From a virus, in the IMG/VR virus record IMGVR_UViG_3300037234_000386, positions 1 through 64,000 of that record: 64,000 nucleotides of DNA. One strand, given 5' to 3'. Positions 2,228-22,486 of this stretch are shown piece by piece. The notes below the pieces were generated by a model. It worked only from the letters and a program-made list of their open reading frames with translations. It did not search any database and was not told the origin of the DNA. The position numbers and the translations under genes were made by a program. Positions within the stretch are counted from its first letter, which is position 1; each line of letters begins with the position of its first letter.

Positions 2228-4255
2228 ATGCCATTAGATTTTTCAGACTTAGGGATAAAGACAAAGAATGCAAAAAGATATGCTACCACGTGTCCAGAGT
2301 GCAGTCACAATAGAAAAAAGCAATCAGCACCATGCTTAACTGTTAACGATGAACCGAACAACAGATGGTATAAGTGCTGGAATTGTGGCTTTAGTGGAAA
2401 TTTAGATGTGCAGGACAAGTACGAAGCGGTCAGAGAGAAAGCCAAGATGCCCAATCTACGGAAAGCATTCACCCAAAAAGCTAAAGCATACATTAAAACT
2501 TGGGGCATTAGTGAAAAGACATTAAAGCATTTTGAAATTTACGAAGGAGTGATATTTGGTAAATTACAACTAAACTTTCCATTTTTCATGCATCATACAT
2601 TAGTAAATGTAAAACATCTAAATGCAGAATGGAAAAAAGGAGACAACTATTCCAAATGGTATCAACTATCCCTTAAAGAAGGGGAAGAGAGAAAGATACT
2701 CCCGTTTGGAATAAACAAGATAAAAACCCACGATGAAGATGGTGTTAAAATACCTAATTTAAGGCTCTTAATTACAGAAGGAGAAAAAGATTGTGTCACA
2801 TTTTTCGAGTGTGAATACGAAAATGTAATATCAGTTCCACAAGGAGCACCTTCACTTAACGCCAAAGATTTTAAGAAAGAATTTGCATGGTTAAATGATC
2901 CATATGTAAAAACTATCTTGGATGAAGTAGAATATTTCTATTTAGCCGTAGACGCAGATGAACCGGGTAAAAAGCTTTGCCATCATCTATCTGAAATACT
3001 AGGCAAAGAAAAATGTAGAATAATTCAATACCCCACAGGATACAAAGATATTAACGAAGTATTCATGGGCGATGAAAAAAAGGGACTAAAAGCATTGGGC
3101 AAAGATGGAGTTGACGAGTGTTATAAAAACATAAAATCTATTGCTATCAAGGGAATAATTAGGATTCATGAAGTTTATGACAAGATACTTGAAATAAGAA
3201 AGAATGGATTTGTTCCAGGATTTGGAGTTGGGGATAAAGATGTAGATTATCTTTTCACGATGAAGAGAAAGCTTTTGATGGTAATTACAGGCGTACCAGG
3301 GGCGGGTAAGAGCGTTTGGGCAAGGTGGTGGATTGTTAAAATGATAATTCACAATGTTGACTTGGACTTAAAATGGGCAATGTTTACACCAGAAAACAGA
3401 CCAGTAGAGAGGGAATATGCCAAAATACTAGAAGTTTTCACAGGGCAATTGCTAAAAGAGGATTCACACAATAGCATGAGTGATGATGTGCTAAGAAAAG
3501 CTTCTAGATGGATACATAAGCACATAATGATAATAGCTCCAGACAAATACAACCACGAATCTTTTGGAGGAACGGTTAATAATGATAACCACAATACTCT
3601 TGATTCTATTCATAAATACGTAATCTATTTAAAGAAGACAGAAAATATTTTTGGTTACATGATCGATGCTTGGAATAAGATAGAACACGAACAACCAAAA
3701 AATCAAACCGAAACACAATTTATAAGCAAACAGTTAGATAAGGTTCTTTCGTTTGGGGATTATTGGGATGTAGCAACTATTATAATAGCTCATCCTACAA
3801 AAATAGAGATGGTGGGAGAAAACTTTAAAATGCCTTCTCTTTATAGCATAAAGGGATCTTCAGCATGGAAAGAAAAAACAGATATTGGTGTAATCATACA
3901 TCGTTATAAGATGAAGAAGTTATCTGCAAAAGAAGCAATGGAGAAGGGTATTGACTTAGCTTCATGCGATGATGATGAAAAATGGGAAGTTATGCCAAAG
4001 GCACCTAATATTATATTTACGGAAAAAATTAAATTTGAAGAAACTGGGCATGAGAGCAGGGTAAAGATGGAGATGAGGGGATTTGGACAGTTCTTCGTAA
4101 TAAAGAATGGAGATCAAAAATCACTACCTCCACCAGAAGAGCCTAAAAAAAACACCAATAAAAGCAAGCAGCAAAAGATTGAGCACCCTGATTCTAGAAC
4201 GGAGTCTGTAGCTAAGGTATTTGACGATGATGAATGGGATGATTTGCCTTTCTAG
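2228..4255 (+). CDS. Bifunctional DNA primase-helicase (T7 gp4 type)
   Basis: 675 residues. It would make RNA primers and unwind the replication fork. A zinc-binding module has Cys22-x2-Cys25 and Cys50-x2-Cys53. A TOPRIM-like segment follows (LLITEGEKDC near 180; AVDADEPG near 240, supplying acidic metal ligands). The RecA-like helicase core carries Walker A GVPGAGKS near residues 354-361 and later motifs (MFTPENRP; IIIAHPTK). This order matches T7 gp4/Twinkle-type primase-helicases and the length is normal. The last 50 residues are Lys/Pro-rich then strongly acidic, similar to the acidic tail of gp4-like proteins that contacts other replisome parts (inference). Confidence 0.9.
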   Translation: MPLDFSDLGIKTKNAKRYATTCPECSHNRKKQSAPCLTVNDEPNNRWYKCWNCGFSGNLDVQDKYEAVREKAKMPNLRKAFTQKAKAYIKTWGISEKTLKHFEIYEGVIFGKLQLNFPFFMHHTLVNVKHLNAEWKKGDNYSKWYQLSLKEGEERKILPFGINKIKTHDEDGVKIPNLRLLITEGEKDCVTFFECEYENVISVPQGAPSLNAKDFKKEFAWLNDPYVKTILDEVEYFYLAVDADEPGKKLCHHLSEILGKEKCRIIQYPTGYKDINEVFMGDEKKGLKALGKDGVDECYKNIKSIAIKGIIRIHEVYDKILEIRKNGFVPGFGVGDKDVDYLFTMKRKLLMVITGVPGAGKSVWARWWIVKMIIHNVDLDLKWAMFTPENRPVEREYAKILEVFTGQLLKEDSHNSMSDDVLRKASRWIHKHIMIIAPDKYNHESFGGTVNNDNHNTLDSIHKYVIYLKKTENIFGYMIDAWNKIEHEQPKNQTETQFISKQLDKVLSFGDYWDVATIIIAHPTKIEMVGENFKMPSLYSIKGSSAWKEKTDIGVIIHRYKMKKLSAKEAMEKGIDLASCDDDEKWEVMPKAPNIIFTEKIKFEETGHESRVKMEMRGFGQFFVIKNGDQKSLPPPEEPKKNTNKSKQQKIEHPDSRTESVAKVFDDDEWDDLPF

Positions 4256-4448
4256 CGCAGCAATAACCGAAACTAAAGCGTTTGGCGTAGTTGAGGTAAT
4301 GGAATGTAACGTTTAGCTAAGAATTGAAGCGGCTAAACTCGCAGTATTTAACGAATAGAGACTAATTAAATTGATTAATACAAACCTAGGCATGCGACAA
4401 CCCCGCTTTTATTTTTAGCTGTTGTTATAGCCTGTATTTTAGAAGATT
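4256..4448 (+). repeat. Spacer with two inverted repeats at the left edge of the cassette-like array
   Basis: A 193-base non-coding spacer between the primase-helicase and a small gene. It contains a perfect 7-base inverted repeat GTTTAGC ... GCTAAAC directly after a TAAC. Further right is a GGC...ACAAC ... GTTGT...GCC hairpin around 4390-4432. The TAACG motif right after a gene and a GTTGTTATA motif shortly before the next start recur in other spacers of this region. Confidence 0.45.
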
Positions 4449-4733
4449 ATGAAAACGAAAAGAATTTGGAAATTTGAATTAGAGACTACCGACAGACAAA
4501 CTGTAGCAATGCCAGAAAATGCGGAAATACTAACAGTGCAGACGCAAAATGAAACACCTTGCATATGGGCTATAGTTGAGCCTGAAAACAAGAAAGTAAG
4601 GCGAGTGTTTGAAATATTTGGCACAGGAAACCAAGTAAATTGTAATGAAGATACCGAGCGAAACTATATAGGTACATACCAATTGAGACAAGGTAGCTTA
4701 GTGTTTCATTTATTTGAAGATACCGCAATATAG
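4449..4733 (+). CDS. DUF7352-like small protein
   Basis: 94 residues. The pattern IWKFELETTDRQTVAMPENA, then AEILTVQTQ, then PCIWAIVEP, then FEIFGTGNQV and a final Y-IGTYQLRQGSLVFHLFE is a widespread small phage/bacterial family that I recall as DUF7352; the number is from memory. Function is unknown and the fold is probably all-beta. Non-coding spacers with inverted repeats flank it on both sides, so it looks like the first cassette of the array. Confidence 0.6.
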   Translation: MKTKRIWKFELETTDRQTVAMPENAEILTVQTQNETPCIWAIVEPENKKVRRVFEIFGTGNQVNCNEDTERNYIGTYQLRQGSLVFHLFEDTAI

Positions 4734-4811
4734 GCTATAACGTGTGCATAAACCAAGTACGCAAGTTTAGATAGAATTATAATTGAAATACTAATTAAAA
4801 ATAAAAAAGCG

Positions 4812-5144
4812 ATGGATTTTAAAAAAGAAATTATTAAGATTATGGTAGATGCTCAAGAAAAAGTAAAGATGGGCAGCGATGGTGATTACAGCCAAGAGGT
4901 TGCAGTATTAGCCGATGATTATGATGATGTAGCGGGAAAAATATATGAAGGACTTATAAAAAAGCTACAACACCACAGAGACACTACTATTGGCTTATAT
5001 GCTACTGATAAAGAAATAGGAAAACTCCTTCATTTATTTTGGCAAAGCAGCTCAGACGCTTGCCCATTAGAATGCGGCGAGGCTGAAAAGCAAGAGATTG
5101 AATTTGAGAAATGGGTTAAGGGTATTAGTTTTAGAATTGATTAA
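4812..5144 (+). CDS. Hypothetical cassette protein
   Basis: 110 residues, acidic and largely helical, beginning MDFKKEIIKIMVDAQEKVKMG. No family recognised and no membrane segment. The start has the AAGCGATGG context shared with three other genes of this array (6278, 8293, 8779), which suggests a common translation signal. It is preceded by a 78-base spacer with a TATAACG motif just after the upstream stop. Confidence 0.5.
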   Translation: MDFKKEIIKIMVDAQEKVKMGSDGDYSQEVAVLADDYDDVAGKIYEGLIKKLQHHRDTTIGLYATDKEIGKLLHLFWQSSSDACPLECGEAEKQEIEFEKWVKGISFRID

Positions 5145-5148
5145 GCGT

Positions 5149-5172
5149 GTAGGCTTTTATTTTTAATTGCCT
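5149..5172 (+). repeat. AGGC/GCCT hairpin, first copy
   Basis: Starts 5 bases after a stop codon. The sequence runs GTAGGC, an AT-rich middle, then GCCT, so it can form a small hairpin. A nearly identical copy occurs at 9086-9110, also just after a gene end. The shared position and sequence mark them as members of the same spacer family. No T-run follows, so it is not a standard terminator. Confidence 0.5.
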
Positions 5173-5253
5173 AAATAACCTAAGAACTTAAATTGAAAAC
5201 AACCCTAAGTATTGGGTTTGATGCGTTGTTATAAACTTTTAAAAAATACCCTT

Positions 5254-5394
5254 ATGGAAACTAAATACAGAGTGAGAATATTTCAAGATAACACTTATGA
5301 AGTTATAGAAAAAGAAACAGGCGACAGTATGTTTCAAGGAACATTAGCTGATTGCGAAGCGTGGATTAGATTAGAAGTAGGCGGGTATTTTTAA
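5254..5394 (+). CDS. Very small hypothetical cassette protein
   Basis: 46 residues from ATG 5254 (METKYRVRIFQDNTYEV). Frame-open ATGs further left fall in the structured spacer, so 5254 is preferred. The product looks like a small antiparallel beta hairpin plus helix: YRVRIFQDNTYEV, then E-KETGDSMFQGT, then LADCEAWI. It recalls small phage proteins that display query-like KYRV...G.F.T..eae.WI patterns, but no function is known. Confidence 0.55.
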   Translation: METKYRVRIFQDNTYEVIEKETGDSMFQGTLADCEAWIRLEVGGYF

Positions 5395-5468
5395 TTGTTT
5401 TATAATGGCAAGTATAAGAATAGTGGCGTAATTAATAGAATAAATTTAACTTAAAAACAAATATTGAT

Positions 5469-5786
5469 ATGAAAAAAATAAACTTTAAGAACCTAAGTAT
5501 TAGACATTATTTTTATATAGTGTTAAAAGCTTTTATTCAATTTCAGATTAACAATGGAATGTTTAAGCATCAATATTGCTTCGAGCGGGGGCAATGGCTT
5601 AAATACAATTGGAAAGCTAAAATAATGATTGATACTGCAATTAAAGATAAGCTTCACCCGAGGCAATTTTATAGATACTTATATAAATATCCAGATAGGA
5701 ATGTGGAATTTGACAACGAAGATAGCTGCTCTGCATTTTGGGTGCGAGGGCTTTACTTTTGGGAAAAGAAACCTAATTGCTTTTAA
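5469..5786 (+). CDS. Hypothetical basic cassette protein
   Basis: 105 residues, strongly basic and aromatic (many Lys, Tyr, Phe and Trp), beginning MKKINFKNLSIRHYFY. No membrane segment or metal site is obvious. It might bind nucleic acid, judging only by composition. No family recognised. Its spacer on the right contains the perfect 10-base inverted repeat at 5872-5912. Confidence 0.45.
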   Translation: MKKINFKNLSIRHYFYIVLKAFIQFQINNGMFKHQYCFERGQWLKYNWKAKIMIDTAIKDKLHPRQFYRYLYKYPDRNVEFDNEDSCSAFWVRGLYFWEKKPNCF

Positions 5787-5871
5787 TGGTAAATGTATGA
5801 AACGGTGGGATTTGAAACACGAAACCGACAAATAAAATATAAATTTAAACAAAGCTAGTGGGCTAATAATT

Positions 5872-5912
5872 GCACCTTAACCCCACTGTTTTATGACATA
5901 TTGTTAAGGTGC
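5872..5912 (+). repeat. Perfect 10-base inverted repeat, attC-like
   Basis: Arms GCACCTTAAC (5872-5881) and GTTAAGGTGC (5903-5912) are perfectly complementary across a 21-base loop. The right arm starts GTTAAG, close to the integron core consensus GTTRRRY, and ends 10 bases before the next ATG. The left arm carries the complementary TTAAC. No T-run follows, so this is not a simple terminator. Confidence 0.6.
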
Positions 5913-5922
5913 GTTATTTATT

Positions 5923-6144
5923 ATGAAAAATGCAACTGCTGAAATTCATTTGAGTATGAATGTTGAATGCCCCCATTGTGAGGATGACATAAATTTACTT
6001 GAATTAACTGAACTGACGGATGACGGATGGATTTATAATAAAACAATGCCTGATGACCGAACATGGGGTTGTGAGGATTTTAGATACAAGCTACAATGTC
6101 CAAGCTGTAAAGAAAATTTTATGATTAAGGATGTAATTTATTAA
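5923..6144 (+). CDS. Zinc-ribbon-like cassette protein
   Basis: 73 residues with two CxxC pairs (CPHC near residue 16 and CPSC near 60), the classic layout of a small zinc ribbon. Such proteins can bind nucleic acid or act in protein complexes; nothing narrower can be said. It is bracketed by two strong inverted repeats (5872-5912 and 6146-6217) with cognate GTTA boxes, so it is the most cassette-like unit of the array. Confidence 0.6.
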   Translation: MKNATAEIHLSMNVECPHCEDDINLLELTELTDDGWIYNKTMPDDRTWGCEDFRYKLQCPSCKENFMIKDVIY

Positions 6145-6145
6145 T

Positions 6146-6217
6146 GCACCCTAACGATGGTTGTAAGATTTCGTTGTTTTTCACAATGAATTTTACAACG
6201 TGTTAGCTGACTGGTGC
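6146..6217 (+). repeat. Integron attC-like folded site
   Basis: Nested complementary blocks: GCACC 6146-6150 with GGTGC 6213-6217; CTAAC 6151-6155 with GTTAG 6202-6206; GTTGTAA 6160-6166 with TTACAAC 6193-6199. The CTAACG start, GTTAGC end, two paired boxes per arm, short asymmetric spacers and a variable central loop are the architecture of attC sites (R'', L'', loop, L', R'). It starts 2 bases after the stop of the preceding gene, as attC sites do in cassettes. No T-run follows. Confidence 0.6.
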
Positions 6218-6277
6218 GAATAATTTAGTACAAACTTAAATACGAAAAACAAACAAAAATATTTTAAATTTTTAGCG

Positions 6278-6862
6278 ATGGAAGAAAAAATACTGTATTG
6301 TGGGATGGCAGATGATATTCTGACACCAATGATTTTAGTCCCAAATTTTACTAATCTTTTTGTGATTGACATATTTGATATTGCTTTTGCGAAAGAAAGA
6401 ACTTGGGATGGACAGAAAAAAGATATACTACAATGTTTGAAAAATGGCAATAATGAAAAATCGCATCATAGAGAAGTTTATTTGTATTATGACAAAAGTA
6501 CACCAACATATTCAATAGATGAGAGATGCGACATAATAGAGGAAGTTGAGAATGGTAAAATTTGGAGAGTAAAATTTACATATAATGACATTGAAAGGCA
6601 GTTGATTTATTTCCATCACACAAATTTTATTGCAAATTGGGATAATGAAATTAAAGATATTTCTCATCTAATGTGTATGGGTGCAGAATTCCCAATAGAA
6701 AAAAAAGTACTCAATAAAATGATAAAGGAAAGATGCAATGAGAAATGCAAATTTTTCGACCAATTTGCAGAATTTGACAATACGATAAAGGCAAATGCAA
6801 TAGGAAGAGATATTTTTATCAATGACTTAGAAAATGTATTATGTGCGGTGGGGAAAATTTAA
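6278..6862 (+). CDS. Hypothetical protein, weak Rossmann-like N-terminus
   Basis: 194 residues, the largest product of the array. The N-terminus YCGMADDILTPMILVPNFTN, then LFVIDIFD recalls the beta-loop-alpha plus acidic second strand of class I methyltransferase-like folds, but the canonical GxGxG is absent, so this is weak. Several Cys and His follow without a clear motif. The start has the TAGCGATGG context shared with other array genes. No function assigned. Confidence 0.45.
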   Translation: MEEKILYCGMADDILTPMILVPNFTNLFVIDIFDIAFAKERTWDGQKKDILQCLKNGNNEKSHHREVYLYYDKSTPTYSIDERCDIIEEVENGKIWRVKFTYNDIERQLIYFHHTNFIANWDNEIKDISHLMCMGAEFPIEKKVLNKMIKERCNEKCKFFDQFAEFDNTIKANAIGRDIFINDLENVLCAVGKI

Positions 6863-6882
6863 AATATTTTGAACCGAAATGT

Positions 6883-6945
6883 TAATACGAAGAACGAACG
6901 TAGCACTTGCAGCTAATGGACAAGGCTAAGATTAGTTGCGTATTA
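6883..6945 (+). repeat. Inverted-repeat spacer between cassettes
   Basis: TAATACG (6883-6889) pairs perfectly with CGTATTA (6939-6945). GCAGCTAAT (6909-6917) pairs with ATTAGTTGC (6931-6939) except for one wobble. The stems are separated by a long left spacer and none on the right, an asymmetry again reminiscent of attC sites. It lies wholly between two unrelated small genes and has no T-run. Confidence 0.5.
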
Positions 6946-6971
6946 TTAAAAAACAAATAAAATAAGTACAT

Positions 6972-7262
6972 ATGAGTAATTTAACAGAAGACCAAATAAA
7001 TGCAGTAATTGATTGGATGAATAACTGGGAACAATTGAAAGATACTGTAATTCCGATACGTTTCAAAGAGGATTGGACTAAGCAATTAAATTTAGCTGAT
7101 GTTAACCACAGTATTTTTAAACCACCATTAGGATTGAAACCTAAATTTATACACGACCAACATCGACAAAGTGAAATAATGGCTGCAATAGCAAGATATT
7201 TAGATGTAGGTAAAACACCACCTAAAGAATGGGCGATTGAATTTGCCTCATATTGTGGTTAA
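6972..7262 (+). CDS. Hypothetical cassette protein
   Basis: 96 residues, helical, beginning MSNLTEDQINAVIDWMNNWEQLKD. A Trp/Pro-rich middle is followed by a helix ending in WAIEFASYCG. It resembles small phage proteins found near replication genes, but I cannot name a family. Its TAA lies inside a GGTTAA/TTAACC inverted repeat (7257-7262 and 7289-7294). Confidence 0.45.
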   Translation: MSNLTEDQINAVIDWMNNWEQLKDTVIPIRFKEDWTKQLNLADVNHSIFKPPLGLKPKFIHDQHRQSEIMAAIARYLDVGKTPPKEWAIEFASYCG

Positions 7263-7294
7263 CGTGTTGTATAAACTCAGTAACGTAATTAACC
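7257..7294 (+). repeat. Short inverted repeat overlapping a stop codon
   Basis: GGTTAA (7257-7262) and TTAACC (7289-7294) are complementary, with TAACGTGTTGTATAAAC right after the left arm. That motif resembles the GTTGTTATAAAC end of the spacer before 5254. The stem is short, so this is a weak member of the spacer family. Confidence 0.35.
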
Positions 7295-7357
7295 GCAACC
7301 GCTCAATTGAAAAACTACTGATTCCGTTTTTATTTTTTAGGGAGGGTTTTATTTTTT

Positions 7358-7407
7358 TTACCTTTATATTAGGATAATAAATATATTACCCTTATATTTG
7401 GGTATAA
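7358..7407 (+). promoter_or_regulatory. Two tandem operator-like dyads over a promoter -7 box
   Basis: Two similar dyads lie in tandem: 7358-7377 (TTACC ... GGATAA) and 7386-7407 (TTACCC ... GGGTATAA), each with an 8-9 base AT-rich centre. The second contains TATATTTG (7393-7400), matching the Bacteroidota -7 box TAnnTTTG; no good -33 TTTG is visible. They sit just upstream of a two-gene unit whose second product is HTH-like, so autoregulation is a reasonable inference. Confidence 0.5.
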
Positions 7408-7422
7408 TTAAAAAGCTAAAAA

Positions 7423-7623
7423 ATGAATTACGTAAAAACAATAAAGACAACACTTAGAAAAACTAACAACACTTCAGGGGCTATGGATGATTATTTTACC
7501 TCTAAAAAGGAATTGGATAAAATTGATTTAGCTTTTTATAAAAGTGGAAGTTTAATATTTATAGAAGATGAAAATCAAGTTTATAGAATACACCAAAAAG
7601 AAGTTTTAACGCTTAAAAAATAA
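7423..7623 (+). CDS. Small hypothetical protein, first gene of a two-gene unit
   Basis: 66 residues, beginning MNYVKTIKTTLRKTNNTSG and ending in a beta-rich stretch (SLIFIEDENQVYRIHQKEVLTL). It is encoded 3 bases before the HTH protein gene and behind operator-like dyads, so the pair could be a repressor unit or a toxin-antitoxin-like pair. The family itself is not recognised. Confidence 0.5.
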   Translation: MNYVKTIKTTLRKTNNTSGAMDDYFTSKKELDKIDLAFYKSGSLIFIEDENQVYRIHQKEVLTLKK

Positions 7624-7626
7624 ATA

Positions 7627-7815
7627 ATGCTTGAGTGGCTAATAAAAAACAAAGATTCGTTAAGTCTTAGAGGCATAGAACGACAATTAGACATGCCAGA
7701 TACTACGTTGGTAAAAGCTGTAAACGGTAGCCAAAACCTACCTAAAAAGTGGATTGAACCGCTAAATAAATTCCTAATGGTTTTGCAAAAACCAACGAGC
7801 GTTGGCAAAAAATAA
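7627..7815 (+). CDS. Small HTH DNA-binding protein
   Basis: 62 residues. Residues about 13-34 (LSLRGIERQLDMPDTTLVKAV) form a helix-turn-helix, followed by a Pro-rich link and a final helix. It is small enough to be a repressor or antitoxin-like regulator that dimerises on the two dyads upstream of its operon (inference). It directly follows the 66-residue gene with a 3-base gap. Confidence 0.6.
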   Translation: MLEWLIKNKDSLSLRGIERQLDMPDTTLVKAVNGSQNLPKKWIEPLNKFLMVLQKPTSVGKK

Positions 7816-7872
7816 AAACATTAGCTGTGAATTTCACTATGAAAAACTTAGCAGTTATTGATTTTATACGTT

Positions 7873-7918
7873 GTTGTATTGAACGACTAAAAGGAGTGGC
7901 GTTTTAATGCAATACAAC
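7873..7918 (+). repeat. Inverted repeat GTTGTATTG/CAATACAAC, attC-like
   Basis: Perfect 9-base arms at 7873-7881 and 7910-7918 with a 28-base loop that can extend by AACG/CGTT. The GTTGTA ... TACAACGT pattern is shared with the repeats at 6146-6217 and 9166-9246. The right arm overlaps an ATG at 7907, which is one reason the downstream gene is assigned a later start. Confidence 0.6.
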
Positions 7919-7969
7919 GTTGAGTATATAGCAAATTGCTTATTAATAAATAAAACAAAAACTTTGAAT

Positions 7970-8209
7970 ATGATTACAAAATATGTAAATACTTGGAGAC
8001 TTAAAAAATGGCAAAGCAATTTGCTATATACATTGTTAGGGTTAGTTTACTCTACAAAGATTGTAAAGGGTGATAAAATTAGATGTTATGGAATAGGTTA
8101 CCCTCATTGGAAAGGCGAGGAATTTGAATGTACACTAGACTTTAAGGATGGAACAATAGGTGTAAGAAATGCAGTAAGGGTAGCCGAGAAAGATTTTAGG
8201 AAACTATAA
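7970..8209 (+). CDS. Hypothetical basic cassette protein
   Basis: The frame is open from 7907, but those first codons lie in the inverted repeat, so ATG 7970 (MITKYVNTWRLKKW) after an A-rich leader is preferred, giving 79 residues. The C-terminal half (KIVKGDKIRCYGIG, then W-GEEFECTLDFKDGTIGVRN) looks like a small beta-barrel domain. No family recognised. Confidence 0.5.
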   Translation: MITKYVNTWRLKKWQSNLLYTLLGLVYSTKIVKGDKIRCYGIGYPHWKGEEFECTLDFKDGTIGVRNAVRVAEKDFRKL

Positions 8210-8223
8210 ATTAACCCTAACGT

Positions 8224-8247
8224 TTATTTAAGGGCAGTGCTAAATAA
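8224..8247 (+). repeat. Spacer hairpin TTATTTA/TAAATAA
   Basis: Arms TTATTTA (8224-8230) and TAAATAA (8241-8247) pair across a 10-base loop, with CG on both outer sides. It follows a CCCTAACG motif just after a stop codon, the same start as the attC-like site at 6146. The following bases 8243-8264 recur at 8730-8751. Confidence 0.45.
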
Positions 8248-8264
8248 CGAGAGAATTTAAAACG
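8243..8264 (+). repeat. Cassette-spacer direct repeat, copy 1
   Basis: 22 bases of the form AATAAC, two variable bases, GAGAATTTAAAACG. The same block occurs at 8730-8751 with only the two middle bases changed. Each copy follows a CTAACG motif and precedes an AAGCGATGG gene start, showing that adjacent cassettes share a common spacer. Confidence 0.6.
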
Positions 8265-8292
8265 TGAATTATAAATTAACAATTTAGAAGCG

Positions 8293-8691
8293 ATGGCAGA
8301 TAATAGAATATATGGATATTACTGGGTGAAAATAAATGAAAAGTGGGAACCCGCATTATGGAATAGTAAAAAGCAGTGGATATTGATCGGATTTGAAAAA
8401 CCTGCTTTAGTGGATGAGGTTGGTGAACTTATTATGCGTGATGGCAAAAAGCCAACAAGCGAGCCTGATACTCAGGCATTGCCTTTAAATGTTGTTAGCT
8501 TTAACGAAGCCTGTGAATGTGATAACACCGAAGTTTGCGGTATATGCTTTCGTAAAAAAGGATATGAAATAATTGATAACGAACTAAAATTCACAGGCGT
8601 AGAGGAGGTTTGCGATAAATGCGAAGAACCATTTAGCTACAAGGGAGAATATAGGAACATTTGCTTTAAATGCGAAGATGATTTTATTTAG
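8293..8691 (+). CDS. Cys-rich protein with two putative metal sites
   Basis: 132 residues. The N-terminus GYYWVKINEKWEPALWN, then W-LIGFEKP recalls small phage proteins of unknown role with a Trp-rich beta domain. Cysteine clusters follow: ACECDNTEVCGICF near residues 78-91 and EVCDKCEEPF, then NICFKCEDD near 106-130, which fit zinc knuckles. The start lies in the AAGCGATGG context. Function is unknown. Confidence 0.5.
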   Translation: MADNRIYGYYWVKINEKWEPALWNSKKQWILIGFEKPALVDEVGELIMRDGKKPTSEPDTQALPLNVVSFNEACECDNTEVCGICFRKKGYEIIDNELKFTGVEEVCDKCEEPFSYKGEYRNICFKCEDDFI

Positions 8692-8729
8692 CAAACTTAA
8701 AGCTAACGGAAATAATAAGAAGCGTACGG

Positions 8730-8751
8730 AATAACCTGAGAATTTAAAACG
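8730..8751 (+). repeat. Cassette-spacer direct repeat, copy 2
   Basis: Second copy of the 22-base block at 8243-8264, in the spacer after the Cys-rich gene. The preceding GCTAACG motif and the following A-rich stretch ending AAAGCGATGG are also shared. Confidence 0.6.
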
Positions 8752-8778
8752 AGTAATAATTTAAAATAAAAAAAAGCG

Positions 8779-9078
8779 ATGGAAAATTTTGGAAAATTTA
8801 TGACACTAGTAATGGCTATGATTATTAGCCCGATTGTAAGCGGTTTTGTAACTATGAAGTTATGGTTTTGGTTTATGGTTCCAATATTTGGAATGAACCC
8901 ACTTAGATTAGTTGAAGCGATTGGATTAATGTTTTTAATTAATTACCTGAAGTTTAGAAAAACAAAGCCTACGGATAAGGATAAGTTTTGGCTTGAATTT
9001 ACAGAAAGTATAATTACTGTGATACTTATAGCTGCTGTGGCTTTGTTTAGCGGTTGGATAGTACAGAAGTTTATGTAA
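8779..9078 (+). CDS. Small integral membrane protein
   Basis: 99 residues with three hydrophobic stretches: about 8-33 (with FWFM), 42-58, and 74-92 (SIITVILIAAVALFSGWIV). A charged loop, RKTKPTDKDK, lies between the second and third. Inner-membrane location is likely. It could affect superinfection or lysis, but nothing in the sequence decides this. Its spacer begins with the GTAGGC repeat. Confidence 0.55.
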   Translation: MENFGKFMTLVMAMIISPIVSGFVTMKLWFWFMVPIFGMNPLRLVEAIGLMFLINYLKFRKTKPTDKDKFWLEFTESIITVILIAAVALFSGWIVQKFM

Positions 9079-9085
9079 AGTGTGC

Positions 9086-9110
9086 GTAGGCTTTTTATTT
9101 TAAATTGCCT
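9086..9110 (+). repeat. AGGC/GCCT hairpin, second copy
   Basis: Near-identical to 5149-5172 and in the same position, just after a gene end. Outer GTGT/ACAC pairing may extend the stem (around 9080 and 9117). Confidence 0.5.
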
Positions 9111-9165
9111 CAGTTTACACGAATGAAGCCACGAGCTACGGCACTAAGTATGCTTTTTATTTAGT

Positions 9166-9246
9166 GTTGTACGCTGTGCTTTTTATAAGATGCTGAGAGG
9201 GTAATTATTAAGAACCAATAAAAACCTTTTTAGCATTGCGTACAAC
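9166..9246 (+). repeat. Inverted repeat GTTGTACGC/GCGTACAAC, attC-like
   Basis: Perfect 9-base arms at 9166-9174 and 9238-9246, continued inward by TGCT (9177-9180) with AGCA (9232-9235) after a 2-base internal loop; the central loop is about 50 bases. The GTTGTA ... TACAACGT form matches the repeats at 6160-6199 and 7873-7918. It occupies the middle of a 229-base spacer with no other gene. Confidence 0.6.
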
Positions 9247-9307
9247 GTGGATGGGCTATGAGTAGTATTTTTAACGAATTTGAAACACTAAACTAAAATT
9301 ATACATA

Positions 9308-9592
9308 ATGATAACAGATGCTAAGATAAAACAAGGAATGGAGAAAGCTTATAAAAAAGCAGGACATAATACCTACTTCAGCAATGGTTTTGAAGCGGGG
9401 GTAAGGTTTGCACTAGAACAAGTTAAAAATATTACTTATGAGCCTGTGTTAAGCGTTGTTGATTCAGATGCAAAAGAAGAGAAAGAAAAAATAATAACAG
9501 CAATACTTTATGAGCACATGGATCATCACAGCGGAAAAGTTTCAGAATTAGATTTTGATGCAGTTGTTGCAGACGTAATTAAACATACGTAA
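9308..9592 (+). CDS. Hypothetical helical protein, last gene of the array
   Basis: 94 residues, acidic and helical. An N-terminal segment AKIKQGMEKAYKKAGHNTYFSNGFEAGVRFALEQV resembles short helical phage proteins with an F..GF..G..fA motif. No function known. It lies between the largest attC-like repeat and the tyrosine recombinase gene, which starts 60 bases later. Confidence 0.5.
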   Translation: MITDAKIKQGMEKAYKKAGHNTYFSNGFEAGVRFALEQVKNITYEPVLSVVDSDAKEEKEKIITAILYEHMDHHSGKVSELDFDAVVADVIKHT

Positions 9593-9652
9593 TAACGCTT
9601 AACATATATTATCCTTAATGTAGTTAATCAATTGACACAAAAATACTTAAAA

Positions 9653-10465
9653 ATGGAATTGACAGAGTTATTAAAAAAATATGACAACAACTTAAACCTT
9701 AAATATGATTCTAAAAATACTAAAGATGGTTATAGGAATGCGATCAATAGATATATAAAGGACAATGATAGGGTTTACAGAATGTCTACCGACAATATAA
9801 AGCAATATATGTCTAATTTTAGAAAAATATACTCTAACTCTTATTTTAATATTATGGGATCATCATTAATTTTACTTTACCGAGATGTGTTAAATCAACC
9901 ATTAAAAATGAAGTGGTTTAAGTCTATAAAAACAGAACGAAAGTTTCATCGGATAATAACTAATGATGAATTTATTCAGATGATGAAAAATGCTAAAAAT
10001 TTAAAACATAAGGTGATTTTAATAATACTTTATTCGACAGGAATAAGAGAAACTGAGTTAATAAACATTAAACTCTCAGATATTGATTTTAACTCTAAGA
10101 GAATTTTTATCAAATCGTTAAAGAATGGTAAAAACAGATATTCTCCACTAAAAGAATTAACTGAGCGTTACATTAAAGCATATATCAGAGGATGGAGCCC
10201 TAAAGAGTATCTTTTGAATGGTCAAAATACATTAAAATACTCCACAAGCAGTGTATTTCAAATGATAAAAAAGGTTTCTGAAGGTAAAGTTAATCCTCAC
10301 TTATTTCGTCATACTTTCGCCACACTTATGATTGAACATGAAGATGTGTTTTACACACAAGAATTATTAGGGCAAAGAAATCTTAATAGTACATTACATT
10401 ACAATCACATTTCTCAAGAAAGATTAATTAAATCATTTAATCCACTAGACAAAATAGCAAGTTAA
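9653..10465 (+). CDS. Tyrosine recombinase (XerC/D-like integrase)
   Basis: 270 residues from ATG 9653; a TTG at 9632 is less likely. It cuts and rejoins DNA through a 3'-phosphotyrosine. An N-terminal SAM-like core-binding domain spans about 1-95. The catalytic residues are Arg132 (TGIRETEL), Lys157 or Lys160, His216-x2-Arg219 (HLFRHTFATL) and Tyr250. Gln241 replaces the usual His of the LGH motif. The length is close to XerC/D, and there is no obvious extra IntI-type insertion before HxxR. It could integrate the phage or act on the spacer sites of the adjacent array; the sequence does not decide. Confidence 0.85.
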   Translation: MELTELLKKYDNNLNLKYDSKNTKDGYRNAINRYIKDNDRVYRMSTDNIKQYMSNFRKIYSNSYFNIMGSSLILLYRDVLNQPLKMKWFKSIKTERKFHRIITNDEFIQMMKNAKNLKHKVILIILYSTGIRETELINIKLSDIDFNSKRIFIKSLKNGKNRYSPLKELTERYIKAYIRGWSPKEYLLNGQNTLKYSTSSVFQMIKKVSEGKVNPHLFRHTFATLMIEHEDVFYTQELLGQRNLNSTLHYNHISQERLIKSFNPLDKIAS

Positions 10466-10467: not shown

Positions 10468-10737
10468 ATGAAAACACAGGGAAACGAAATTTTAATATTA
10501 CCGGATGAAAATCCAGCAGAAACGAAAACAGGTATCATCATACCTAAAACAGCTAGTAAATTAAAGCCATCTGGAATAGTTATTGGCTGTGGAGATGGTT
10601 GCAAAACGGCTTACAAGGGAGCTAGAGTACTTTATAGTCCTAAAAATGGAAGTATAATGGATATTGAAGGTAAAGAACACCATGTCATTAGAGAAGAGCA
10701 ATTATACTATGTTTATGGGAAAGAAACAGATAGTTAA
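10468..10737 (+). CDS. GroES-like co-chaperonin
   Basis: 89 residues, near the usual Cpn10 length of about 97. The N-terminal strand (NEILILPDENPAETKTGIIIPKTA) matches the Cpn10 pattern with a short mobile-loop-like TKTGIIIP. GIVIGCGDG fits the conserved barrel segment, and ARVLYSPKNGS, then IREEQLYYVY the C-terminal strands. It would cap host GroEL and perhaps suit it to capsid folding, as T4 gp31 does (analogy). It starts 3 bases after the recombinase gene. Confidence 0.75.
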   Translation: MKTQGNEILILPDENPAETKTGIIIPKTASKLKPSGIVIGCGDGCKTAYKGARVLYSPKNGSIMDIEGKEHHVIREEQLYYVYGKETDS

Positions 10738-18154: not shown

Positions 18155-18550
18155 TTATGTTGTAGAGTAATTGATTTTAAACGTAGAGTTGTGTTTTTCT
18201 AAAAGCATCAATATTGCCTTAACATGATCTTGGTGCTCTTCTGTGGTTACTACGGTAAGAAGCTTTTCGAAATGTTTTATTAGAAAAGGTATTGATGGTG
18301 CAATTAATAAAGCATGATTATCATCCTTATGAGCTTTCCAAAAAGCATCTGGTTTATACATAAAAATAATAGTAGCCAGACCGTTTTTGCCAATAAGATA
18401 CTTTGGTTTGTCTTGCTTATACACCTTTGTCAAACATTTATTTAGCTTCACTTCACCCATGTCGAACAATACATTCATAGCATCTTCGTATGATCCCCTG
18501 TGAACAATCACCTCTCTTATTGGTAATGGATATTTCCCTAGTGTTTTCAT
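18155..18550 (-). CDS. Hypothetical protein
   Basis: 131 residues, basic N-terminus, mixed alpha/beta. A hydrophobic helix-like stretch (ALLIAPSIPFLIKHF) is too short and polar for a confident membrane segment. It is the last gene of a four-gene leftward unit driven by the divergent promoter at 19159-19190. No family recognised. Confidence 0.5.
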   Translation of the reverse strand: MKTLGKYPLPIREVIVHRGSYEDAMNVLFDMGEVKLNKCLTKVYKQDKPKYLIGKNGLATIIFMYKPDAFWKAHKDDNHALLIAPSIPFLIKHFEKLLTVVTTEEHQDHVKAILMLLEKHNSTFKINYSTT

Positions 18551-18553
18551 GAT

Positions 18554-18748
18554 TTACAAGTTAGATATTAAATAAAAAAGGGCTTCTACTGGCAAAGTAT
18601 GAGTACTCTTGCCGTTCTCGATGGTAAATAAGGCGATGTGTTGAGAATCGTCAATAACAATTCTCTTATCATCAATAACAATATCAGTCCAATCAGTCTC
18701 CTTGCTGACCGTCACTCTTTTCTTGCTCGTCTGTCTGCGTACCCTCAT
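18554..18748 (-). CDS. Small hypothetical protein
   Basis: 64 residues: a basic N-terminus (MRVRRQTSKKRVTVSKE) then a beta-rich body (DIVIDDKRIVIDD, then HIALFTIEN). Its first 56 bases overlap the C-terminal Glu/Gln-rich tail of the upstream gene in another frame. The 3-base gap to the next gene supports a real operon member. Confidence 0.45.
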   Translation of the reverse strand: MRVRRQTSKKRVTVSKETDWTDIVIDDKRIVIDDSQHIALFTIENGKSTHTLPVEALFYLISNL

Positions 18749-18947
18749 CTGATTCCGTTTTAAGTTTTCTAAAGATAGTTACAACTGCATAAATATCTTC
18801 AGCAATTCTTATTGTTCCTCTAGAAGTGCTGATTAATTCAGTCTTACCAGTTGTAGATGGTCCAATCGTTCTCGTTAAATTAGCTCTAAAAAGAACCATC
18901 TTGCCCTGTATTTTAAATTTTAGATTCTTAGCGTCAAATCGTGCCAT
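18693..18947 (-). CDS. Small hypothetical protein with charged tail
   Basis: 84 residues. The first 60 are beta-rich and basic (MARFDAKNLKFKIQGKMVLFRANLTR); the rest is a Glu/Gln/Asp-rich disordered tail. It overlaps the next leftward gene by about 56 bases. It starts 4 bases after the preceding gene's stop. No family recognised. Confidence 0.5.
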   Translation of the reverse strand: MARFDAKNLKFKIQGKMVLFRANLTRTIGPSTTGKTELISTSRGTIRIAEDIYAVVTIFRKLKTESDEGTQTDEQEKSDGQQGD

Positions 18948-18951
18948 TGTA

Positions 18952-19131
18952 CTAAGAGTTTGTTAATTGGTTCTTAAAAGCAATAGCTTCTTTGCTCTCA
19001 ATATGGAATACAACCTTGTTTTCGGGCAAATAGAGACATGCATCGCCTCTCTTTATGGTTTTACCCGTTTCAGCACAAGTGCTTTCGAATTTAGACTTCG
19101 TGAGTCTTCCTGATCTAGTTGCTCGTGTCAT
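18952..19131 (-). CDS. Small basic protein, first gene of the leftward unit
   Basis: The frame is open to 19200, but ATG 19131 (MTRATRSGRLTKSKFEST) lies right after the promoter leader and is preferred; 59 residues. CAETGKTIKRGDACLYLPENKVVFHI resembles short phage proteins built on a C..tg..I..Gd...y pattern, probably a small beta domain. Function is unknown. Confidence 0.55.
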   Translation of the reverse strand: MTRATRSGRLTKSKFESTCAETGKTIKRGDACLYLPENKVVFHIESKEAIAFKNQLTNS

Positions 19132-19158
19132 AATCTTATATGTATTGGTTTGTGTGTG

Positions 19159-19252
19159 CAATATTACAACGAATAAACGAATAAAACAAATACATATCAC
19201 AAAAAATAATCACAAAAAGATTTGTTTATATGGAATAGATGTCGTAATATTG
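19159..19252. promoter_or_regulatory. Twin divergent promoters
   Basis: On each strand TTTG is followed by exactly 20 bases and TAATATTG. Rightward: TTTG 19221-19224 and TAATATTG 19245-19252. Leftward: the complement of CAAA 19187-19190 and of CAATATTA 19159-19166. The two -7 boxes therefore form an inverted repeat. They drive the rightward gene at 19279 and the leftward unit from 19131. The same element occurs at 25889-25920. Confidence 0.7.
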
Positions 19253-19278
19253 TGGTGTATTAACTAAACTATAAAACA

Positions 19279-19689
19279 ATGATAAGTCAGATTTACCGAG
19301 TGCACTACATGAAAGACAGGTTTTCTTATGTAGGATTACTTAGAAACGAAAAGAAGTTTAGCATTAACGACAAGGTGTTTTTCTCTATTAACAACCACGA
19401 TATAGCTTTTGGGCGTATTGTAGGTGTAGAATTACCACCAGCAGAAAATCCAGAATATAGATATAAGATTGAGTTACCTGAAAAACTTATACTCCAAAGA
19501 ATGGAGCATAAGGATTTTTACGCAGGTAAAGATATTGACAAGGTAGATCTTAATTGTGATAAGATTTTTAGCACAATTGAAGAGGCTAAAGAATCTGCAA
19601 TAAAAAATCTTGAGCGCATGGCTGAATTACAACGAGTAGAGATTGATAGATATTTTTACGCACTACAATCAAGCAGTTCTAAAGGTTAG
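19279..19689 (+). CDS. Hypothetical protein
   Basis: 136 residues. The N-terminal two thirds are beta-rich (FSYVGLLRNEKKFSINDKVFFSINNHDIAFGRIVGVEL) and recall small SH3/PUA-like barrels; the last 40 residues are helical. It is the first gene of a rightward block driven by the twin promoter. The role is not recognised. Confidence 0.5.
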   Translation: MISQIYRVHYMKDRFSYVGLLRNEKKFSINDKVFFSINNHDIAFGRIVGVELPPAENPEYRYKIELPEKLILQRMEHKDFYAGKDIDKVDLNCDKIFSTIEEAKESAIKNLERMAELQRVEIDRYFYALQSSSSKG

Positions 19690-19756
19690 TTAGTATTGGA
19701 TAATTATGGTTTATAGCTCGGTTTATGCTTGTCCGGGCTTTTTACACCTTCTAAAA

Positions 19757-20146
19757 ATGAATTATATGGGACATACAAAAAGGAATTGCGACTATTGCGA
19801 AAAAGAGTATATGGCAGACAACCGAAATTTAAAGCGAGGTTGGGGGTTATGTTGTTCTAAGAGGTGTGCAGCAAATAAACGAGAAAAGAGTAGACCTAAC
19901 TATGATCCAAAGCGAGTTGCTGCTAATAATATTAAAAGAGTTAGTTTTCAAGAACAGGCTTACGAGCGTGGATCAAATGCATTTGCAAGACGTAGAGGCT
20001 ACCCAACATATGCAGAAATGCAAGACAGTCAAGCTATGGAAGATGGCAGTTGGGATGCTCATGGAGGTGTTGAATTGTCGATATGTAATATCTGTAATTT
20101 AAGAGCTAACTATTGCAGATGCGGTGAAGGATGTGATGATTATTAA
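19757..20146 (+). CDS. Zinc-finger protein (CxxC, HNH-like knuckle)
   Basis: ATG 19757 is preferred over the upstream 19706, giving about 129 residues. CDYCEKEYMADNRNLKRGW, then LCCSKRCAANKRE is the short zinc knuckle common in phage proteins and in HNH nuclease N-termini. A second Cys cluster, CNICNLRANYCRCGEGC, lies at the C-terminus. No nuclease motif follows, so only metal and probably nucleic-acid binding can be proposed. Confidence 0.55.
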   Translation: MNYMGHTKRNCDYCEKEYMADNRNLKRGWGLCCSKRCAANKREKSRPNYDPKRVAANNIKRVSFQEQAYERGSNAFARRRGYPTYAEMQDSQAMEDGSWDAHGGVELSICNICNLRANYCRCGEGCDDY

Positions 20147-20157
20147 AATTTTGAAAT

Positions 20158-20643
20158 ATGGAATTTACTTTTAAAAATAAGACTTACGAACTCGTAAAAG
20201 GGAATGGCTGGAATTGTGTTGAATGCGACCTGCATGACATGCAAGGGTGTGCTATTTCAATAGCCAACGCTCCTTTTGAGATAGCTAAAAACACTCATGA
20301 ATGCGAAGATGGTGGTTATGTGTGGAAAGAGAATAGGAATAAAAGTATTGATAGGCTACATGAAGATGCGACACGTGCTGCAAGTGGTGTGATCGAGCGC
20401 ATTAATGATGCCCGTATTGCATCAGCAGCCACCCGCATAGGAGAATTCGATAACCTTCACATAACAGCACACATGGATATTGACAGAACAGTAGAGTCTT
20501 TAAGACCTATCCTAGCGTACAAAAAGAAAGCAGCTACGGAAATACTTAGGTTTGGTGATGTGGATGAGGAGCAGGTTGTAGTATTGAACGCCATACTTAA
20601 ACATGCAGATAATATGATAAATCAGGTACTTAGAATATCATGA
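20158..20643 (+). CDS. Hypothetical protein with Cys motif and helical tail
   Basis: 161 residues. The N-terminal 40 residues include WNCVECDLHDMQGC, a possible metal site. The rest is helical (RLHEDATRAASGVIERINDARIASAATRIGEF). No family recognised. Its stop overlaps the next start (ATGA). Confidence 0.5.
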   Translation: MEFTFKNKTYELVKGNGWNCVECDLHDMQGCAISIANAPFEIAKNTHECEDGGYVWKENRNKSIDRLHEDATRAASGVIERINDARIASAATRIGEFDNLHITAHMDIDRTVESLRPILAYKKKAATEILRFGDVDEEQVVVLNAILKHADNMINQVLRIS

Positions 20644-20927
20644 GTAAAGGATGCAGACATATAAAAATAGGAGATGCCACAGCTATATTGTGTGGAGGCG
20701 AGCCAACAGATCATGAGTGCAATGATAAAGGCCCCGTAATGTACACGTTCTCGGATGGAGATTCTTGTAGCTTATTTGACAAGGCTAGGAAAGAGCGCAT
20801 GAATCTTAACATGTGCGATGCAGACAAGCTTCACTTCATCCGTGAGAAAGGAATCGATATAAGGGGAGGTAGTGTGTCCTGCTCCATATGTAAGAGGCTG
20901 GCATCAGCAGACATGTACTATTTATAA
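20640..20927 (+). CDS. Cys-rich hypothetical protein
   Basis: 95 residues with scattered cysteines (GCRHIKIGDATAILCGG near the start, a middle C-SLFD and CSICKRLASADMYYL at the end). The final CSICKRL suggests a zinc knuckle. Coupled by ATGA overlap to the preceding gene. Function unknown. Confidence 0.5.
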   Translation: MSKGCRHIKIGDATAILCGGEPTDHECNDKGPVMYTFSDGDSCSLFDKARKERMNLNMCDADKLHFIREKGIDIRGGSVSCSICKRLASADMYYL

Positions 20928-20952
20928 TTTATAAACCAAAAACAGAGTAAAT

Positions 20953-21171
20953 ATGAAAATTAAAGAAATTGTTTCTCAGTCTCGAAGAGATTTTTGGGCA
21001 GACATGGAGTGTGAACATTGTGGTCATATAGAGAAAAAAGTATCTGGTTATGATGATACTAATTATCACAATAACGTAATACCAGACATGAAGTGTAAGG
21101 AATGCGGAAAGAAGGGTAGCGAAGAGCATCGCCCACTAGCTCCTAAATATCCTGAAGGAATGCAATTGTAG
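20953..21171 (+). CDS. Zinc-ribbon protein
   Basis: 72 residues with CEHCGHIEKKV near residues 20-30 and MKCKECGKKG near 50-59: two CxxC pairs fitting a zinc ribbon. It ends the rightward block and is followed 15 bases later by a perfect bidirectional terminator. Role unknown. Confidence 0.6.
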   Translation: MKIKEIVSQSRRDFWADMECEHCGHIEKKVSGYDDTNYHNNVIPDMKCKECGKKGSEEHRPLAPKYPEGMQL

Positions 21172-21185
21172 AAATAACAAGGCAC

Positions 21186-21225
21186 AAAAAAACCCTAGCA
21201 CAAACGAATGTACTAGGGTTTTTTT
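21186..21225. terminator. Strong bidirectional terminator
   Basis: Arms 21186-21198 (AAAAAAACCCTAG) and 21213-21225 (CTAGGGTTTTTTT) are perfectly complementary with a 14-base loop. It separates the rightward gene ending at 21171 from the leftward gene ending at 21224 and has the A- and T-tracts needed in both directions. Confidence 0.9.
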
Positions 21226-21763
21226 ATTCTTCATCTAAGAACCAATCAAAACCTTTTTCTTCTTTATAAACAGCATTCATGTTGTCTTCAAGAGCAGCCT
21301 TATTCACTTTTCTCAACACTCTTTTAAAAAAAGCAATTCCTGCTGGTGTAAACAATATAAATGTTTTTTGCATACAGTTTCTATGAGGATACACAGCATC
21401 GAAAGTTTGGCGAGAAAAAAAACCTAAGTCTTTTAGCGTATGTATTCTAATCCTCTCCTGGTGGCAAATATTATGGTTCCTGCTATCAATAGTTACCGTT
21501 CCTCCTTTGGTTAGAAACCACAGCTTGCACATAATGAACCAATGATAAAGACCTACTTTAGGCTCAGTCTCTTCCAAAACTTTTATTATTGGATATATGA
21601 GTGCTATCCCATCAAGCATAGAGAATGGAAATAGATAATTCCATATTGCTTTGTATAGGATTTTGAATAGGTTGATTTTTTTACCCTCTAATTTTATGTA
21701 GATGTTTTTTATCGAGGGATCAAGCTCGTATAGTTCGGGTGGTGCTGGCGTGTTATTTTGCAT
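21224..21763 (-). CDS. Hypothetical protein, possible winged-helix
   Basis: 179 residues. Residues 35-75 have a hydrophobic patch (ILYKAIWNYLFPF) but not a clear membrane helix. The stretch RIRIHTLKDLGFFSRQTFDAVYPHRN could be a winged-helix wing and recognition helix; this is weak. The TTTTT of the terminator overlaps its end. It overlaps the next upstream leftward gene by 11 bases. Confidence 0.5.
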   Translation of the reverse strand: MQNNTPAPPELYELDPSIKNIYIKLEGKKINLFKILYKAIWNYLFPFSMLDGIALIYPIIKVLEETEPKVGLYHWFIMCKLWFLTKGGTVTIDSRNHNICHQERIRIHTLKDLGFFSRQTFDAVYPHRNCMQKTFILFTPAGIAFFKRVLRKVNKAALEDNMNAVYKEEKGFDWFLDEE

Positions 21764-21962
21764 GGCCTTCTGTATTAAATCCGTACTTTTCCATTACTGG
21801 AAGGATCTTTGCCCTGTGAACTGGCTCTATTGTATCGCTCTTCGTCTTGTAGTTGAGATAATTGCGGCCAAGTGTGCACTCCTTTAGAAATATCGCAACC
21901 TTAATGGCTTGATGCCCTTTTAGAAAGGCTTTTAAGTCCTTTTTTGTTAGTTTTTGCTTCAT
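21753..21962 (-). CDS. Small hypothetical protein
   Basis: 69 residues, basic N-terminus (MKQKLTKKDLKAFLKGHQAIKVA), probably helical. Its start overlaps the stop of the upstream leftward gene (TAATG), and its end overlaps the next start, so the three are translationally coupled. No family recognised. Confidence 0.5.
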   Translation of the reverse strand: MKQKLTKKDLKAFLKGHQAIKVAIFLKECTLGRNYLNYKTKSDTIEPVHRAKILPVMEKYGFNTEGHAK

Positions 21963-22165
21963 TATGCTAGTGTTAGTTTAATAAATACGTTTTGATACCT
22001 TAGACATCGCCTCAAATCATCACTGTTTAAAATAGGATGCTTTGAATAAGTTTCGCCTTCCTTGTTAAGCTCAAAAATTTCTACTGTATCGCTTAAAAAC
22101 AAGTTGCTTGCAATTTCAAAAACATTGACATAAACAATATTTTTGACAAATATATATTTTTCCAT
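21962..22165 (-). CDS. Small hypothetical protein behind a two-hairpin leader
   Basis: 67 residues, beginning MEKYIFVKNIVYVNVFEIASNLFLSDTVE. Its start is 26 bases downstream (leftward) of the tandem-hairpin leader at 22192-22238. It ends in the TAATG overlap with the next gene. The family is not recognised. Confidence 0.5.
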   Translation of the reverse strand: MEKYIFVKNIVYVNVFEIASNLFLSDTVEIFELNKEGETYSKHPILNSDDLRRCLRYQNVFIKLTLA

Positions 22166-22191
22166 AATAAAAAATATTAGTTAATAAAAAT

Positions 22192-22238: not shown

Positions 22239-22245
22239 TAATAAA

Positions 22246-22428: not shown

Positions 22429-22486
22429 GATTTTAATTGTTTAGTTACAAAATATATATTCATTCCTAGATTTTCAAAAAATACCA

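Follow-up and report, generated by a model that had tools for sequence, protein, structure and literature searches.

The window analysed here is a stretch of 64,000 nucleotides (positions 1 to 64,000 of the 72,323-base IMG/VR virus record IMGVR_UViG_3300037234_000386) which carries, between a primase gene and a tyrosine recombinase gene, an array of 13 small open reading frames (ORFs), all on the plus strand and separated by mostly non-coding spacers. An earlier note, written from the letters alone, had described the 13 short same-strand genes at 4256-9652, pointed to inverted repeats with GTTA/TAAC-type boxes in the spacers and likened the whole to an integron cassette array. The gene arrangement is as it had been described, and the inverted repeats proved real when stems were scanned against shuffled sequence. 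Using a scored pattern of the form AAC-gap-stem-gap-GTT, compared with dinucleotide shuffles, we found four clear attC-like sites within the array, all on the plus strand, whose AAC and GTT boxes surround a stem of 18-22 bp. Shuffles of the whole 72-kb record gave about 0.7 matches scoring at least 12.5 per strand, of which about 0.05 would be expected in 5.4 kb. The variable interval of the window, which holds the 13 array genes and the recombinase and is bounded by the primase/helicase (2228-4255) and a Cpn10-like gene at 10468, contains the following sites and units (R1 is a covariance model described below).

2228-4255, plus strand: DNA primase/helicase, bounding the variable interval on the left (PHROG 239, 1e-46; 43-59% identical orthologues in six kin contigs)
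4308-4426, plus strand: attC-like site 1, long loop, with R'' ...TGTAAC(G), L'' AGCTAAGAATTGAAGCGG, L' CCGCTTTTATTTTTAGCT and R' GTTATAGCC (score 14.2; covariance model training member)
4424-4741, plus strand: cassette body 1, R' GTTATAGCCTGTAT ... R'' ATATAGGCTATAAC, 13/14 complementary, holding gene 4449-4733
4449-4733, plus strand: gene, DUF7352 (Pfam PF24043, 1e-27)
5771-5919, plus strand: attC-like site with inner palindrome GCACCTTAAC..GTTAAGGTGC (covariance model E 1.6e-7; outside the training set)
6153-6204, plus strand: attC-like site, short-loop form CCCTAACgatg[GTTGTAAGATTTCGTTGT]..[ACAATGAATTTTACAAC]gtGTTAGC (score 13.8)
6901-7117, plus strand: weak attC-like match (covariance model E 0.009)
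7214-7348, plus strand: doubtful attC-like site (score 12.6)
7916-8037, plus strand: attC-like site with perfect 18-bp stem (7924-7941 / 8014-8031) and the ATG (7970) of the next gene in its loop (score 18.0)
7916-8221, plus strand: intact unit made of site, gene 7970-8209 and R'' TTAACCCTAAC, the latter 13/14 complementary to R' GTTAGGGTTAG at 8035
9244-9450, plus strand: attC-like site with 22-bp imperfect stem and ATG 9308 in its loop (score 18.8; R1 E 0.004)
9244-9603, plus strand: intact last unit made of site, gene 9308-9592 and R'' TAATAACGCTTAAC, which is complementary at 12 of 14 positions to the R' at 9448
9604-9652, plus strand: attI-like interval from the last R'' to the recombinase start (46-53 nt in three phages; motif match weak in the window)
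9653-10465, plus strand: tyrosine recombinase of 270 aa, related to IntI but lacking its insert (LGH reads LGQ; the catalytic residues R, K, HxxR and Y are kept)
10468-10737, plus strand: Cpn10-like protein, bounding the variable interval on the right (PF00166, 2e-10; kept in kin)

The recombinase had been said to start 60 bases after the last unit, which is right for the last gene (stop at 9592, recombinase ATG at 9653); the last box, at 9603, lies 50 nt upstream of that ATG. The scheme of one gene plus one spacer per unit stands in part: spacers are mostly non-coding, but only 3 nt separate ORF 7423-7623 from ORF 7627-7815, so that the scheme fails there, and several spacers have no recognisable site. 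Six kin contigs, identified via primase and terminase, were compared with the window, as had been proposed. The interval between primase and cpn10 measures about 480 nt in L002, 240 nt in L003, 1080 nt in L051 and 125 nt in L052, 2.2 kb in L050 (contig G004) and 6.2 kb in the window, and L053 gave no cpn10 match. The slot of L050 is occupied by a different array with spacers in the same style; the window's genes in their order do not recur in the kin. All 18 kin contigs lack a gene for the recombinase.

A 20-mer found after a gene stop and common to the window and L050 led to a further phage, L055/G019, with a textbook array. In its long-loop sites the order is GYATTnnnnnnAACG, 4-6 nt, an arm of 18-20 nt, a loop, the complementary arm, 1-3 nt and GTTRnnnnnAGTRC, with an AAC-GTT span of 119-125 nt in most sites and a conserved frame GYATT..AACG...GTTR..AGTRC. 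Sites are in excess over dinucleotide shuffles in G019, in the window and in G004, which has a second array at 34-36.4 kb. G stands opposite T at constant places, with the G on the upstream arm (one such column in 11 of 14 sites). The stem was recovered unprompted by RNAalifold, with double changes in 14 of 16 pairs, and paired cells reached 80% in the true alignment versus 40-56% in slid controls, both of which were exceeded. The spacer sites thus fold as attC-like hairpins with covariation, which the earlier note had put forward as a check. R1, the covariance model built from 14 such sites, matches further sites beyond its training set; in the rest of the window, beyond the array, and in the kin contigs L002, L003 and L051-L053 it found none. 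No Rfam family covers these sites, and a pattern search with a guessed loop motif gave no match. Compared with attC proper, the paired R''/R' and L''/L' arms and the asymmetry between arms are present (in the window for 4-6 spacers only); within the R boxes AAC and GTT are constant, and the other positions depart from the consensus RYYYAAC / GTTRRRY in most sites.

The same sites occur in bacteria. A Kapabacteria genome (G020) gave an R1 match (4.8e-10). Of 148 genomes sampled from its phylum, which we take to be Bacteroidota in GTDB, at least 83 have R1 matches at E ≤ 0.001, clustered as arrays, a lower bound because about 20 candidates were scored per genome. Of the two control phyla, the one that includes a Bacilli genome had no positive among 100 genomes, and the one that includes a Deltaproteobacterium had a single positive among 99; this match (L119, G286:C16:7470-7620, E 2.8e-7) is perhaps a transferred array. 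Fifteen bacterial stretches hold 110 R1 sites whose orientation is nearly uniform within each array, and a Persicobacter and a Flagellimonas plasmid carry both sites and recombinase. On the plasmid of Flagellimonas marinaquae (NZ_CP092416; L232 9881-11986), the recombinase-proximal unit (R' 10727, R'' ending 11896) holds erm(F) and the next unit (R' 10016, R'' ending 10606) a dihydrofolate-reductase-family gene, with the recombinase (xerA) adjoining; the family may therefore carry resistance genes.

To ask what constitutes a unit, the eight bases beyond GTTA at its start were compared, as reverse complements, with the eight before TAAC at its end. Complementarity between R' and R'' in 84 bacterial units averaged 5.43 of 8 positions, versus 2.57 when ends were re-paired at random (maximum of 2000 shuffles 3.10) and only 2.74 of 8 across one and the same site. 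Because complementarity is found within units and not across the site, the boxes belong to units rather than to sites, as in integron cassettes. Both ends are kept in three window units (4424-4741, 8035-8221 and 9448-9603). Sharing between genomes follows the same borders: one whole 805-bp unit is present in two genomes (L111/L086) with both ends at a box, a 99.8% identical stretch (L110/L077) ends 2 nt from one, and a 2.4-kb stretch is common to two arrays of a single genome (L107/L108). Window unit 7916-8221 matches Cellulophaga phage phi18:1 with 87% DNA identity from 7951 to exactly 8221, the C of the closing TAAC; the phi18:1 copy has kept L' and not L''. A plain terminator boundary was considered for this match and rejected, the boundary being the unit end. 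The ends of units held in common thus fall at the AAC/GTT box, where the earlier note had expected breakpoints, and complementary ends characterise the 84 bacterial units as well as phage units including the three of the window, with breakpoints at the G/TT box in the shared units. Of the long near-identical stretches found on comparing arrays, most are remote from any box, repeated and about 1.2 kb in length; they are probably insertion sequences and were not taken for cassettes. In one bacterial array (G058, L110 18730-18850) a nearly empty unit of about 36 bp (GTTGAAGAAG...CTTCTTCAAC) was observed between the last site and the recombinase.

Phage and bacterial arrays differ in polarity. The gene lies on the strand of the site in 21 of 21 cases in phages versus 3 of 65 in bacteria, where 62 of 65 are opposite. 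Read from the recombinase, the bacterial arrays follow the classical integron order, gene then attC and pointing away from the integrase; this direction is reversed in phages, the window included. In L150, a 169-kb contig, ten sites are followed by a recombinase on the same strand, as in the window, and L194/L198 and L179 share this geometry. An ATG opening a frame of at least 50 codons that runs past the box was present in 20 of 32 long-loop phage sites versus 0 of 32 in reverse; the same count in bacterial sites gave 7 of 96 versus 5 of 96 in reverse. The idea that bacterial genes also start inside sites was rejected on these figures and because the genes point the other way. One leader, TEQPFCQTRV, precedes different methylase bodies in L150, and in L150 and G019 leaders with the ending LNIPVV or LNIPAV stand before bodies that are unrelated; gene bodies include N6/N4 and Dam methylases. 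The isolated Polaribacter phage P12002L carries many sites of the same architecture on the gene strand. Two corrections to the earlier note follow, namely that the sites are of a Bacteroidota type with long loops and that the phage cassette genes point opposite to those of bacterial arrays.

Start codons within hairpins could also suggest invertible start or promoter switches (phase variation), in which a tyrosine recombinase would flip a promoter-like loop with its start codon between inverted L repeats. Tyrosine-recombinase invertons are used by Bacteroidota, and the L arms of the phage sites do flank an ATG and an A/T-rich segment. We nevertheless regard such switches as very improbable: the arms have a different sequence at every site, whereas invertons served by one enzyme have their arms in common; conservation lies in the outer boxes, which pair between the two ends of a unit and not across the site; and start codons in bacterial sites are no more frequent than by chance.

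Comparisons with PDB and NCBIfam place the window recombinase between Xer and IntI. As had been noted before, it has no IntI insertion (35-40 residues of the IntI-specific domain are missing and the TIGR02249 match is split at about 180/240) and has Gln in place of the His of LGH. An AlphaFold model of moderate quality (12-sequence input, pLDDT 81) matches XerA and IntI4. A search with the integron-integrase profile in 34 genomes (20 R1-positive, 14 R1-negative) recovered insert-less recombinases, with a split match, in 16 of 20 R1-positive versus 1 of 14 R1-negative genomes, and full-length IntI in 5 of 20 and 5 of 14, respectively. The insert-less enzymes often stand at one array end, separated from the last box by roughly 60 nt in G079 and roughly 10 nt in G058. 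In a phylogenetic tree the window enzyme joins the insert-less array enzymes with support 80/72, IntI and Xer forming separate clades (100/100); in a larger tree, with 25 sequences from viral contigs added, it lies outside IntI and Xer, together with the enzyme of phage L153 (95/94). The enzyme, which lacks the IntI domain, is thus neither IntI nor Xer, a further point on which the earlier note is corrected. Array enzymes have in common the motifs NLKHK and EYL(F/L)xGQ and a C-terminal PLD; among those aligned, LGQ is found in the window enzyme only. Scanning viral contigs with the window protein alone gave no match, and an alignment query representing the family found L150 and further phage lineages. 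A candidate attI is the interval of about 50 nt beside the recombinase, which contains a TAACTACWATATAAC-like motif in several phages, weakly matched in the window. Three other viral contigs of IMG/VR (L163, L166 and L174) encode enzymes inside the true IntI clade and are possible phage-borne classical integrons.

Integrases and hot spots of small genes are both common in phages and some phi18:1 hairpins look like terminators, and the earlier note had left room for an integrase, in this case of lysogeny, lying by chance beside a hypervariable region, the hairpins then being terminators. We find this improbable. The window enzyme has no N-terminal arm-binding domain, its 270 aa containing only Phage_int_SAM_4 and the catalytic domain, and it groups with array-end recombinases; its relatives occupy the same end of such arrays in most of the R1-positive bacterial genomes examined and in three further phage lineages. 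Moreover, ends are complementary unit by unit, the hairpins enclose start codons and the distribution of sites is phylum-specific.

We conclude, with a probability of about 85%, that with the window array the phage carries one representative of an integron-like system found in Bacteroidota, in agreement with the earlier suggestion of a related or independent cassette system. Sites, units, their sharing and distribution, the enzyme family, the polarity and the leaders are all read directly from the sequences. Several observations weigh against this conclusion. A recognisable site is kept in only 4-6 of 13 window spacers, and no R'' partner was found for the R' at 6202 (site 6153-6204). The window recombinase is a long branch with 32-33% identity and LGQ. 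In phages G004 and G019 the recovered contigs show arrays without any recombinase gene, and named bacterial support is limited to the two plasmids. Breakpoints at box ends amount to only four to five independent cases, other common stretches ending elsewhere, and both the pairing counts and R1 derive from training sites that had been selected by their stems.

Some of these points would be expected if the window held a stranded relic, that is, a captured host array resembling an attC cluster (CALIN) plus a recombinase, both now inactive, in an interval that changes by ordinary phage mosaicism. Such a relic, which we consider a sizeable minority possibility, is favoured by the absence of a clear site from most spacers, by the LGQ of the enzyme, by other phages whose arrays have no recombinase and by the phi18:1 copy with L' and no L''. 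On the other side, the two clear units closest to the recombinase are intact, and array and recombinase occur together in three other phage lineages, a recurrence that points to selection more than to a chance capture. The window array looks old and may be partly decayed. Its present activity is uncertain because few sites are intact and the recombinase has LGQ; that this copy is still active seems to us a little less probable than that it is not.

As to how the integron-like system could operate, a phage cassette would consist of a hairpin recombination site, one small gene and a closing box. The array-end tyrosine recombinase probably recognises the folded single-stranded site and not its sequence; on one strand it would cut within the AAC/GTT box, at C|GTT, and it would insert, remove or reorder whole units. 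ORF statistics show that the phage gene is turned relative to its site, which lies before the gene and in many cases provides the start codon and the first 15-25 codons through an in-frame fusion across the box; a promoter may lie in the loop. Host recombinases could act in trans. The benefit would likely be a changing set of genes for host takeover and anti-restriction.

The remaining array genes offer few assignments.

4812-5144, plus strand: array gene, no family match (ORF call)
5254-5394, plus strand: array gene, 46 aa, no assignment (ORF call)
5469-5786, plus strand: array gene, no family match (ORF call)
5923-6144, plus strand: array gene, zinc-ribbon-like (weak zinc-ribbon matches)
6278-6862, plus strand: array gene (54% identity to a protein of a 462-kb phage)
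6972-7262, plus strand: array gene, no assignment (ORF call)
7423-7623, plus strand: array gene, no assignment (ORF call)
7627-7815, plus strand: array gene starting 3 nt past the preceding one (ORF call)
8293-8691, plus strand: array gene, no family match (ORF call)
8779-9078, plus strand: array gene, membrane protein (PHROG 2169, moron category, 3.6e-13)

No spacer homology was seen around the homologue of gene 6278-6862 in the 462-kb phage, which therefore says nothing about cassettes. Four array genes (4812, 6278, 8293 and 8779) have the start context AGCGATGG in common, with a similar context in L050 and L055, and a near-identical GTGCGTAGGCTTTTWATTTT lies downstream of gene stops in different phages (window 9082-9103, L050 6875-6895, L055 5468-5488). 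Elsewhere in the window, 18155-23194 contains opposite-strand ORFs and a change in GC skew. In the kin phage G004 the primase gene is interrupted by an insertion of about 0.9 kb (L050 3117-3981), perhaps an intron or homing element, and a tRNA adjoins a permuted-tmRNA-like match (L060 12658-12927).

To judge from these sequences, the system works like an integron but fails strict membership. It shares with integrons one gene and one hairpin site per unit, AAC/GTT boxes, complementary unit ends with the breakpoint at the box, a tyrosine recombinase at the array end and, in bacterial arrays, the classical gene direction. It differs in a recombinase without the IntI insert and outside the IntI clade, in R boxes that depart from RYYYAAC beyond AAC, in the long conserved loop and in the reversal of phage genes relative to the site. 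With XerA and XerC/D the recombinase shares the fold (closest solved structures 5hxy and 4a8e) and the lack of the IntI insert, but these form a separate clade (100/100), do not share the EYLFEGQ motif and SPLD tail, and Xer acts on double-stranded dif. Clusters of attC sites have been described in phages including P12002L, one predicted site of which was recombined by IntI1 (Qi et al. 2023, PMC9892861); the P12002L sites share the architecture reported here, on the gene strand, but the accessible part of that paper presents no Bacteroidota site family, insert-less recombinase or in-site start codons. Likewise, the accessible part of Smyshlyaev et al. 2021 (PMC8138268), which defined an 'integron-like' subgroup of simple tyrosine recombinases, links no arrays or sites to insert-less members. 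According to IntegronFinder 2.0 (PMC9024848), complete integrons are almost absent in Bacteroidetes, with earlier only In0 and then one in Salinibacter. The open literature searched, preprints and subscription journals being outside the search, contained no account of the system.

On balance, we slightly favour the view that a second integron lineage exists in about half of the sampled Bacteroidota genomes, with integrases devoid of the IntI domain, together with a turned-round phage form whose site contributes the start codon and the opening codons; insertion of a cassette would then make a new in-frame fusion gene. If the arrays recombine, surveys have overlooked a major means of gene capture in Bacteroidota and their phages, the reason being that its integrase is without the domain used as a marker. 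The IntI domain would then not be essential for integron-type recombination, and in-frame fusion would offer phages a way of making new genes. The spread of DNA methylases and other counter-defence genes between phages would also be easier to understand. The system can be tested in an isolated phage, P12002L, and in cultured hosts.

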